Assembly (NCBI RefSeq): GCF_009834025.1
Contig: NZ_CP047156.1
Span: forward strand, 2,232,001 to 2,296,000
Direction of reading: 5' to 3'
DNA length: 64,000 nt
Source of the DNA: Epidermidibacterium keratini
GTDB taxonomy: Bacteria > Actinomycetota > Actinomycetes > Mycobacteriales > Antricoccaceae
Shown piece by piece: positions 54,227 through 58,633 of the stretch (within the stretch, counting starts at the first letter, position 1; the number at the start of each line of letters is the position of its first letter). The position numbers and the translations under genes were made by a program. Under the pieces are notes generated by a model, which did not search any database, was not told where the DNA came from, and was given only the letters and a program-made list of their open reading frames with translations.

Positions 54227-54532
54227 ATGAAGAAGTTTGCCTCCGCGGCGCTCGTCATTGCCCCCATGATGCTGCTTTCCGGCTGCAGCAAGCCGTCGCA
54301 GGATGAGATCCACGCCAAGCTCGTCGAAGACGCGTCGGCCTTGCAGCTCTCCGGGGACGACGCGACTGCTTTTGCCGACTGTGCAGCCCCGAAGCTGCAC
54401 GAGGAGCTCTCGCGCTCGAGCCTGAACACCTACCTCGAAGACGGCATGGAGGCTGAGGTCGCCCAGGACGATGCCGACAAGAGCAACAAGATCCTGGAGG
54501 ACTGCTACAACGAGGTCGCTCCGGCCGCGTAG
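54227..54532 (+). CDS. Small lipoprotein A of a tandem pair
   Basis: A 101-residue secreted lipoprotein. The signal MKKFASAALVIAPMMLLSGC carries the lipobox LSGC (Cys 20). The mature part is acidic and helical: SKPSQDEIHAKLVEDA, ATAFADCAAPKLHEELSRSSLNTYLEDG and KILEDCYNEV, with two Cys that could form a disulfide. No family recognised. AAAAGGAAG precedes the ATG. It follows the long putative leader and is paralogous to the next gene. Confidence 0.75.
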   Translation: MKKFASAALVIAPMMLLSGCSKPSQDEIHAKLVEDASALQLSGDDATAFADCAAPKLHEELSRSSLNTYLEDGMEAEVAQDDADKSNKILEDCYNEVAPAA

Positions 54533-54566
54533 CCGTCGTCCTCTCCTCCAAGCTAAAGAAGGCCCC

Positions 54567-54872
54567 ATGAAGAAGTTTGCCGCTGCGGCGCTCGTCGTCG
54601 CGCCGATGATGTTGCTCGCTGGCTGCAGCAAGCCGTCGCAGGACGAGCTTCATAAGAGCCTGGTCGACGACGCCGAGGCTCAGGGCGCGCCGCCGGAGGT
54701 GGCCACGGCCTTCGCCGACTGCGCCGCACCGAAGCTCTATGAGGAGCTTTCGGCCTCCAGCCTCAACACGATTGTTGAGAACGGGCTTGGTCCCGACACG
54801 AAGGTGTCCGAGGATGACAAGAAGGCGGGCGACAAGATCGTCGCCGACTGCGTCACCGAGGCCGGCGGCTAA
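54567..54872 (+). CDS. Small lipoprotein B of a tandem pair
   Basis: Paralogue of the preceding gene, also 101 residues. Signal and lipobox MKKFAAAALVVAPMMLLAGC, then SKPSQDELHKSLVDDAEAQ, TAFADCAAPKLYEELSASSLNTIVENG and KIVADCVTEAGG with the two Cys in the same positions. At DNA level the start region and the segment after the lipobox are nearly identical, so the duplication is recent or under gene conversion. Lies 34 nt after copy A and before a strong terminator, so one transcript carries both. Confidence 0.78.
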   Translation: MKKFAAAALVVAPMMLLAGCSKPSQDELHKSLVDDAEAQGAPPEVATAFADCAAPKLYEELSASSLNTIVENGLGPDTKVSEDDKKAGDKIVADCVTEAGG

Positions 54873-54889
54873 ACCGTCGTACGTCGTGT

Positions 54890-54925
54890 GAGAAGCCTGG
54901 GTGCCGAGGGGCGCCCAGGCTTCTC
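54890..54925 (+). terminator. Terminator of the lipoprotein operon
   Basis: 16-bp stem (GAGAAGCCTGGGTGCC with GGCGCCCAGGCTTCTC, one G-T pair) and a GAGG loop, followed by GCGTTCT. It begins 17 nt after the stop of lipoprotein B and separates the operon from tRNA-Ser. Confidence 0.85.
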
Positions 54926-54960
54926 GCGTTCTGGGGCGGATGAGAGACTGTCCGGCGCAA

Positions 54961-55045
54961 GGAGGATTCGCATAGCGGCCGAGTGCACGCGCCTTGAAAG
55001 CGCGCAGGGGGAGACCCCTCGTGGGTTCAAATCCCACATCCTCCA
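54961..55045 (+). tRNA. tRNA-Ser(UGA)
   Basis: Acceptor GGAGGAT/ATCCTCC, D stem GCA/TGC, anticodon stem CGCGC/GCGCG with loop CTTGAAA (anticodon TGA), long class II variable arm GGGG-GAGA-CCCC, and T arm GTGGG-TTCAAAT-CCCAC. The discriminator position reads A rather than the G usual for serine tRNAs, and CCA is not encoded. Its 3'-end sequence is repeated in the array that follows. Confidence 0.92.
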
Positions 55046-55046
55046 C

Positions 55047-55094
55047 AAATGAGCCCAGGGGTGCGAGCGCCAGCGAGTGCCCCTGGGCTCATTT
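55047..55094 (+). terminator. Hairpin directly after tRNA-Ser(UGA)
   Basis: Perfect 15-bp stem (55047-55061 with 55080-55094) starting 2 nt after the mature tRNA end. The 18-nt loop contains GAGCGCCAGCGA, the GAG...CGA core of the dispersed repeat family. Ends CATTTA. Probably the tRNA terminator or processing element. Confidence 0.75.
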
Positions 55095-55104
55095 ATGCAG
55101 CACG

Positions 55105-55163
55105 GCGGGATTTGAGGAGGAGCCGCGAGGTACGAGCGGCGACGGAGTCCCACATCCTCCACA
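55105..55163 (+). repeat. 59-bp tRNA-end-bearing repeat, unit 1
   Basis: Identical to 55226-55284 except one base. Order: GGGATTTGA (reverse complement of the tRNA T-arm 3' side), GGAGGA, hairpin GCCGC-GAGGTACGA-GCGGC (55122-55140), GACGGA, then TCCCACATCCTCCACA, a direct copy of the tRNA-Ser 3' end. Confidence 0.85.
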
Positions 55164-55215
55164 AATGCGGATGGGTCGGGTGGCGAGGTACGAGCCACTT
55201 GGCCCATCCGCATTT
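55163..55215 (+). repeat. Second hairpin of the array
   Basis: Perfect 13-bp stem (55163-55175 with 55203-55215) whose loop contains an inner hairpin GTGGC-GAGGTACGA-GCCAC (55180-55198). The inner stem differs from those of the flanking units by compensatory changes while the 9-nt loop is unchanged. Confidence 0.8.
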
Positions 55216-55225
55216 ATCGGGAAGA

Positions 55226-55284
55226 GCGGGATTTGAGGAGGAGCCGCGAGGCACGAGCGGCGACGGAGTCCCACATCCTCCACA
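55226..55284 (+). repeat. 59-bp tRNA-end-bearing repeat, unit 2
   Basis: Second copy of the unit, with loop GAGGCACGA (one T to C change). It again ends in TCCCACATCCTCCACA, followed by TTTATG as after the hairpins. No gene is supported in 55046-55402; the open frames here are made of repeat sequence. Confidence 0.85.
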
Positions 55285-55313
55285 TTTATGTAGCGCCGGG
55301 GTAAGCCTCCCGC

Positions 55314-58010: not shown

Positions 58011-58076
58011 CACATTAATCGTTGGAGTTGACCGGCAGCATCCGGTTTGCGTCCCTGTTATCATTGGTGTATCAGG

Positions 58077-58113
58077 ATCGGCCCGCTCGCTTCACGGCTC
58101 GGGCCGATTTTCC
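58077..58113 (+). terminator. Terminator after tRNA-Arg
   Basis: ATCGGCCCG (58077-58085) pairs with CGGGCCGAT (58100-58108) and is followed by TTTTCC. A classic factor-independent terminator for the tRNA pair. It lies inside the first 30 codons of an open frame that runs into the Abi remnant, which argues that this part is not coding. Confidence 0.8.
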
Positions 58114-58137
58114 TTTCGGGGGCGCCAGTGAAGCCCA

Positions 58138-58633
58138 TTTCCGCGAGAAGTACGACGACCGGATGCCGATCTGGGCACTCACGGAACTGCTCGAACTCGG
58201 TCAACTTTCACGCCTGTACAGCGGATTACGGAACGATCTTGCCACCGAGATTGCGACGGCGTTCGGCGTGCCCACCAAGCGGTTGATGGCGAGCTGGATA
58301 GCGACTGTCAACTACGTCAGAAACATCGCCGCGCATCACGCGAGGCTCTTTAACCGGAAACTGGTGATATCACCCAAACGCCCAAAACCCGGGCAAGTCC
58401 CCTTGCTTGACCACCTTGGCCAGCTCGGGGCCCCGAAGCAATTCGGATCGTATAACGCGCTGGCAGTAATGGCCTACTTGCTCAAGACGGCCGCCCCGAC
58501 CGCGAACTGGCCGGATCGCGTCGCTAGCCACCTTCGTCAGTTTCCGAGGAACACAGCTCTAGACGTGGGGTCGATGGGCGTGGCCGAAGGCTGGCTCGAC
58601 GAACCACTGTGGCGACCCCGAGTCAGCAAGTAA
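58138..58633 (+). pseudogene. 5'-truncated Abi-family (HEPN) abortive infection gene
   Basis: About 165 residues that match the C-terminal half of Abi_2/AbiD/F-like proteins: HFREKYDDRMPIWALTELLELGQLSRLYSGL, then the HEPN RNase signature VRNIAAHHARLFNRKL (RNxxxxH) and the conserved YNALAVMAYLLK. Full proteins have about 300 residues; the N-terminal half, with the family's opening motifs, is missing. The frame is open from TTG 58022, but 58022-58137 holds the tRNA terminator and no homology. ATG 58163 could still start a short product that keeps the HEPN motif. Base composition is less GC-rich than the neighbours, consistent with transferred DNA beside tRNA-Arg. Confidence 0.75.

Follow-up and report, generated by a model that had tools for sequence, protein, structure and literature searches.

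Tandem hairpin units behind tRNA-Ser(UGA) of Epidermidibacterium keratini: a possible family of tRNA-anchored repeats with arms matched to the host tRNA gene

The tRNA-Ser(UGA) gene of Epidermidibacterium keratini is followed by a tandem array of hairpin units, and our best explanation, to which we give about an even chance, is that this array belongs to a tRNA-anchored, tandemly amplifying hairpin-repeat family in which the host tRNA gene serves as template for the arms. We regard as established the anatomy of the units, their linkage to tRNA and tmRNA genes and their orientation at the loci examined, the match between arms and adjacent tRNA, the compensatory changes in the stems, and a difference in copy number at one locus. 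Arms specific to the host gene are an unusual property for a short palindromic or tandem repeat. The initial annotation of this DNA had offered three readings: capture of a tRNA end by a repeat element, repeated integration that left traces, and an RNA linked to the tRNA. The first of these is favoured, since the captured ends fit the neighbouring tRNA and since neither same-armed units away from tRNAs nor an isolated accident was seen; the other two come out weakened.

The window, that is, the whole stretch of 64,000 nucleotides analysed, comes from a genome of 4.02 Mb (G000 below; G and L numbers are genome and locus labels). The array contains the following features.

54961 to 55046, + strand: tRNA-Ser(UGA), host gene of the array (ARAGORN; Rfam RF00005)
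55032 to 55047, + strand: tRNA nucleotide 60 to the 3' end plus the next base, TCCCACATCCTCCACA, the stretch that recurs as a direct copy
55047 to 55094, + strand: hairpin A1, terminator-like, AAATG...CATTT, -38.6 kcal/mol as RNA, no T-run
55107 to 55115, + strand: 5' arm of unit 1, GGGATTTGA, reverse complement of the tRNA T-loop/T-stem 3' strand
55116 to 55145, + strand: hairpin core of unit 1, GGAGGA-GCCGC-GAGGTACGA-GCGGC-GACGG
55148 to 55163, + strand: 3' arm of unit 1, direct copy of the tRNA 3' end
55163 to 55215, + strand: hairpin A2, terminator-like, stem unlike that of A1, loop GAGGTACGA, -39.9 kcal/mol as RNA (55164 to 55215 folded)
55228 to 55236, + strand: 5' arm of unit 2, GGGATTTGA
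55237 to 55266, + strand: hairpin core of unit 2, one base changed, GAGGCACGA
55269 to 55284, + strand: 3' arm of unit 2, distal copy of the tRNA 3' end and last element of the array

Within the window, TCCCACATCCTCCACA is found at 55032, 55148 and 55269. The initial annotation had described a stretch of the tRNA 3' end recurring at the ends of two 59-bp units one base apart, and its coordinates and letters agree with ours: the units (55105 to 55163 and 55226 to 55284) differ only by a T or C in GAGGYACGA. It had also read the start of each unit as the reverse complement of the T-arm 3' side, and GGGATTTGA, beginning at 55107 and 55228, is indeed the exact reverse complement of TCAAATCCC in tRNA-Ser(UGA). 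The two long hairpins are present as described, with unrelated stems and common AAATG...CATTT ends, but the lengths of 15 and 13 bp given for them were too low, about 20 (A1) and about 21 (A2) pairs being predicted. The inner loop GAGGYACGA occurs in both units, but its tip GAGGNACGA is not specific to array units, as it also caps hairpin A2 (55163 to 55215) and dispersed hairpins elsewhere in the genome. Between the 3'-end copies of the window there are hairpins only, and neither recombinase nor cargo.

Five proteins encoded around the array were compared with Pfam. Four had a match (DUF1648, a GntR-type regulator, a CAAX-protease-like and an Abi_2-like protein), and the fifth, the second small lipoprotein-like protein (54567 to 54872), had none. 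The latter is encoded by one of two tandem paralogous small lipoprotein-like genes (54227 to 54532 and 54567 to 54872, + strand; MKKF...GCSKPSQDE) placed immediately upstream of tRNA-Ser(UGA). The Abi_2-like protein (58022 to 58633, + strand), which matches the C-terminal part of the profile (114 to 184 of 184), lies directly 3' of tRNA-Arg(ACG). A long antisense ORF across tRNA-Ser(UGA) (54255 to 55046, - strand; MEDVGFEPTRGLPL...) is probably a spurious frame.

In general, a unit follows one order: tRNA nucleotide 60 or 61 to the 3' end, a terminator-like hairpin, the reverse complement of tRNA nucleotides 56 to 63, and a conserved hairpin core, after which comes the next 3'-end copy. The core has a long form, GGAGGA-stem-GAGGNACGA-stem-GACGG, and a short form, GGAGGAGCGNAGCGACGG. 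We found 40 distinct units behind tRNA and tmRNA genes of 15 kinds in at least eight actinobacterial families; they were drawn from 197 distinct pattern matches in the examined loci, and some of them are orthologues or tandem partners. First units begin 21 to 76 nt behind the tRNA, and second units 103 to 190 nt behind it.

In five genomes of the family, the long-core pattern gave seven matches in two genomes, against none for the reversed control, and all seven adjoin a tRNA or tmRNA gene (G000: two at Ser(UGA), one at Gly(CCC); G003: tmRNA, Ser(CGA), Ser(UGA) and Sec). A variant core with a matching arm is found behind Ser(GCU) in G002. Among 397 genomes of the order, 12 matched the long-core pattern, in 20 rows, the reversed control giving 2. 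Thirteen of these 20 rows (12 sites, one being double-counted) lie behind tRNA or tmRNA genes called by ARAGORN, two more at contig edges (L083, L091) lie behind tRNA or tmRNA sequence recognised by eye, and the remaining five are away from tRNAs. Named genomes yielded at least 119 stretches; among the matches listed, 9 of 119 are behind tRNAs, namely in Intrasporangium flavum (Gln, two units), Nostocoides (Ser), Pseudactinotalea suaedae (Gly), Kineosporia (Ala), two Phycicoccus (Ser and Leu), Pedococcus cremeus (Ala), Occultella glacieicola (Pro) and a Pseudonocardiales MAG (Ser(CGA); apparently identical with the contig found in G078). The other 110 are taken as chance. With units in several families and named genera, a single assembly or strain accident, a concern raised in the initial annotation, is ruled out.

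The short core is less discriminating. Among 394 genomes of the class it gave 82 rows in 68 genomes, and class matches of the short or minimal core are largely chance, as the reversed control also matches many genomes. Fifty-two of the 82 rows were read (30 loci, and 20 regions picked for GNA-like loops or repeated matches, a biased choice). When one viral match is added, 16 of 53 lie behind tRNAs (Leu(UAG), Thr(CGU), four Ser isoacceptors, Ala(GGC), Arg(UCU), and Sec of G000), and another three are in tRNA-Thr fragments.

A census of two genomes found a core at 3 of the 48 tRNA and tmRNA genes of G000 (Ser(UGA), Gly(CCC), Sec) and at 5 of the 47 of G003 (Ser(UGA), Ser(CGA), Ser(GGA), Sec, tmRNA), and brought out mini-hairpin cores such as GGAGGAGCGCAGCGACGG at Ser(GGA) of G003. 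At Pro(CGG) of G000 (L269), a hairpin with a GAGGAACGA tip stands immediately 3' of the tRNA, and a possible decayed unit, with CGACGG and a 14/17 copy of the tRNA end and without the GGAGGA half, is found 95 nt behind the gene; this candidate was left out of the unit counts.

Orientation is uniform among the linked units. When both strands were checked, a tRNA was found upstream on the same strand within 400 nt for 40 of the 197 distinct matches, and downstream for one, on a Dehalococcoidia contig, which is taken as chance; none had a tRNA nearby on the opposite strand, and 156 had no tRNA within 400 nt. Of the 157 unlinked matches, five (L083, L091, L365, L366, L372) are situated on tRNA fragments or at the edges of contigs. 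The others are taken as chance, with a weak control: open frames of at least 200 codons are found at 141 of the 157 unlinked matches and also at 23 of the 40 linked ones, and therefore separate the two poorly. Among the 197 matches, no unit was recognised as genuine away from tRNAs or tRNA fragments, including any with the same arms as sought in the initial annotation. The long-form core is present in one viral contig, with no tRNA within 400 nt upstream, and the 19-base minimal core in six, with no tRNA on the loci examined, so that the latter is not specific by itself; by eye, four of the six (L401 to L404) contain it inside one other palindromic context. TCCCACATCCTCCACA was found in 13 stretches of viral contigs. 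A phage origin of the array was rejected, as no phage record matched the tRNA together with the array.

Both arms agree with the host gene. The 40 units were collapsed to 21 distinct tRNA/arm combinations, and partners were shuffled 2000 times. Out of 8 positions, 7.38 agree between the 3' arm and the acceptor strand of its own tRNA (4.77 with shuffled partners), and 7.38 between the 5' arm and nucleotides 56 to 63 of its own tRNA (6.2 with shuffled partners), none of the 2000 shuffles being as good in either case. The four bases derived from the T-loop are present in 37 of the 40 units, spanning five T-loop variants, and are missing in Pseudactinotalea Gly, Occultella Pro and one Leu(UAG) unit. 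Thus the captured end fits the adjacent tRNA for many tRNA kinds, which is what the initial annotation had suggested checking, with a few decayed exceptions: L359 (a core with no recognisable copy, 8/16), L364 (8/16) and Ser(CGA) of G003 (10/16), and, for the 5' arm, both Leu(UAG) units of L357 (5/8) and Occultella Pro (4/8). The 5' arm mostly stops after nucleotide 63 or 64. In a few units the reverse complement clearly extends further (Occultella Pro, Intrasporangium Gln and, by eye, Pseudactinotalea Gly), but a longer inverted arm, complementary to nucleotides 64 to 76, was not significant in an overall test (135 of 2000 shuffles as good).

The compensatory stems noted in the array hold more widely: in 15 distinct stems, 87.1% of positions are paired, against 62.8% when partners are re-dealt (0 of 2000 as good). 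Folding tRNA-Ser(UGA) with the first unit gives z = -6.7, a figure to which hairpin A1 and the tRNA itself contribute. Four bare sequences folded as DNA did no better than shuffles (z from -1.2 to +0.8); energies therefore do not prove the short hairpin, and its structural support is the compensatory stems.

Arrays also change length. At one orthologous Ser(GCU)-Arg(ACG) locus within a genus, G426 has no unit, G443 and G399 have one each and G486 has two, in a comparison of mostly incomplete genomes (completeness 60 to 100) where a fifth genome, G459, contributes the Arg side only; the Ser(GCU) flank of G426 differs from that of its relatives. At tRNA-Thr(CGU) of G706, a 76-bp unit is present in 2.2 copies with 98% matches. 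Around tRNA-Ala(CGC) of family f2, the downstream flanks differ between nearly all genomes.

The question arises as to how a unit comes to lie behind a tRNA gene. At Ser(CGA), G426 has a core and a copy, and G486 has the same hairpin as its relatives without a core, which argues that the hairpin is native and that the core was added behind it; the far flank of G486 is rearranged relative to G426, and G443 has a core but lacks the copy, its contig having an inverted end that is perhaps an assembly fault. The tmRNA of G003 points the opposite way: a hairpin in the style that directly follows tmRNA in G004 is found after the distal copy, as if the unit had entered the gene end. Hairpins of that style are also dispersed as a repeat. 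As a general rule, then, insertion of 3' end, hairpin and core into the tRNA is not upheld. A second dispersed hairpin family, TCTGCGG...GCACGCTAAT...CCGCAGA, was seen in G002 to G004 (for example L069, 610 to 690) behind tmRNA, tRNA and many other places.

In the explanation that we favour, the arms would be written from the host tRNA gene rather than carried in. The writing step may be fold-back (quasi-palindrome) template switching at the self-complementary T-arm, and such copying could also keep the arms matched while the tRNA changes. The copies of the tRNA end, being direct repeats, would let the tandem grow or shrink through recombination or slippage between them, and the core itself may spread between tRNA genes by some further route. 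Quasi-palindrome template switching is well known as a source of inverted copies, and it can turn imperfect palindromes into matching ones. By itself it supplies no conserved core, and since the core is conserved between families, some recognition or mobility is needed. The tandem units (67 to 121 bp) resemble minisatellites (VNTR) in being near-identical and variable in number between orthologous loci, but differ from them in that part of a functional gene, its end, belongs to the unit and that one core is shared by unrelated genes and distant families. A repeat that remakes tRNA 3' ends as arms of its own, in many actinobacterial families and behind 15 or more kinds of tRNA and tmRNA genes, would represent either a new propagation mode of short repeats or a so far overlooked factor in island integration or in the biology of tRNA 3' ends. 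The explanation predicts that arms track the tRNA, that copy number varies between strains, and that newly occupied tRNAs receive copies with locally made arms.

A bolder proposal, which we hold only tentatively and think rather unlikely, is that the core is mobile or self-propagating, that it uses tRNA genes as landing and template sites, on arrival makes its own arms by copying the host T-arm in inverted and the 3' end in direct orientation, and amplifies in tandem, possibly with a tRNA-primed or tRNA-templated copying step. If so, it would be a genetic element making its ends from a host gene. The literature searched, mostly outside subscription journals, showed no description of such tRNA-anchored repeats, which is weak evidence. 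Two known guide systems were set aside: the polarity of the arms does not fit the bridge RNA logic of IS110-type elements, and there is no guide before the first hairpin as in IS200/IS605.

The 3' ends of tRNA genes are main docking sites for bacterial mobile DNA, and together with tRNA-Sec and tmRNA they are classic integration sites. Each unit could be a miniature integrative element, or the remnant of a large one, which a tyrosine recombinase placed at the end of the tRNA gene; the copies would then be attL and attR, and the tandem would have arisen by accretion at one site. We consider this rather unlikely. A direct repeat of the tRNA 3' end is indeed common to att duplications and to the units, and phages, ICEs and islands likewise leave a partial 3'-end copy away from the intact tRNA; the hairpin beyond the distal copy at the tmRNA of G003 is also in keeping with integration. 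However, att repeats include the crossover region in the anticodon loop or T-loop, whereas the block copied here begins at nucleotide 60 or 61, without the T-loop overlap region, except in the tRNA-Thr fragments L365, L366 and L372. Moreover, the copies are about 15 to 21 nt long, about 70 to 120 bp apart, cargo-free between, and linked with a conserved hairpin and with a copy of the T-arm in inverted orientation, unlike att sites, and integration leaves the reverse-complement arm unexplained. One core at 15 tRNA and tmRNA kinds, each with its own arm, is unlike a single integrase, and no integrase is present among the five scanned proteins around the array. At Ser(CGA), the hairpin within the putative insert is also found at the core-less locus of G486.

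The tRNA-Thr(CGU) fragments count in favour of integration. In G614, G560 and G651, a 3' half of tRNA-Thr that begins at the anticodon contains the core in place of the T-loop. In G651 an intact tRNA-Thr precedes the fragment by about 1.1 kb, and a Phd/ParE gene pair lies in the interval; G614 and G560 show no intact tRNA on the stretch examined. The fragments (L396, 1 to 1360, with Phd/ParE and intact tRNA-Thr; L395, 2800 to 3500; L394, 4300 to 4500) may connect to islands. A candidate integrase fragment in L395 has no Pfam match. PMC9897764 covers tRNA fragments from islands and CRISPR, including a 21.4-kb island at tRNA-Gln that is flanked by a 44-bp repeat.

Alternatively, a read-through RNA carrying the anti-T-loop arm and a second tRNA 3' end might alternate between two folds that resemble a tRNA, or might influence 3' maturation. 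The 40 linked units all share the strand of their tRNA, stems are compensatory, and in the window the acceptor 5' strand is predicted to fold 5.4 kcal/mol better on the distal copy (-106.6) than on its native partner (-101.2), but a predicted energy difference does not show that such a switch is used. We find such an RNA unlikely and favour a DNA-level repeat, since the core is placed beyond very stable hairpins in the window and, by eye, in most other loci. An intrinsic terminator combines a GC stem with a T-run; A1 and A2 have strong stems but no T-run call, and a terminator scan of the sense strand made no call at A1, A2 or the cores. In addition, unit number varies between close relatives, down to none, the core is found at just 3 of 48 and 5 of 47 tRNA and tmRNA genes in G000 and G003, and an Rfam scan of the whole window at gathering thresholds returned three tRNAs and nothing else.

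That the units are ordinary REP/BIME-type palindromes, placed behind tRNA genes by chance, is very improbable: the tip shared with dispersed hairpins and the minimal core of the six tRNA-less viral contigs (four with their other palindromic context) are in its favour, but in the family all seven long cores are at tRNA or tmRNA genes, and the arms follow the local tRNA, a property not known from REPs. REP, BIME and REPIN sequences are likewise short, GC-rich, imperfect, non-coding palindromes with common hairpin tips. They are dispersed extragenically, whereas in the five family genomes the long core is found only at tRNA or tmRNA genes, its arms specific to the adjacent tRNA, and the tip alone is dispersed. 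GCGAGGYACGAGC has 17 exact occurrences in the 4.02-Mb genome, against none for the reversed pattern, and four of the 17 belong to tRNA-linked units or their hairpins; with up to two mismatches there are 15 in the window against 14.7 in shuffles, no excess. The dispersed hairpins of G000, GGTGGTCGAGCAGG...GCGAGGYACGAGC...CCGGTTGTCGAGACC (for example L006 to L008, L013, L014 and L017), have the loop of the tRNA-linked units, and CGAG facing CGAG across their stem could presumably form tandem G-A pairs.
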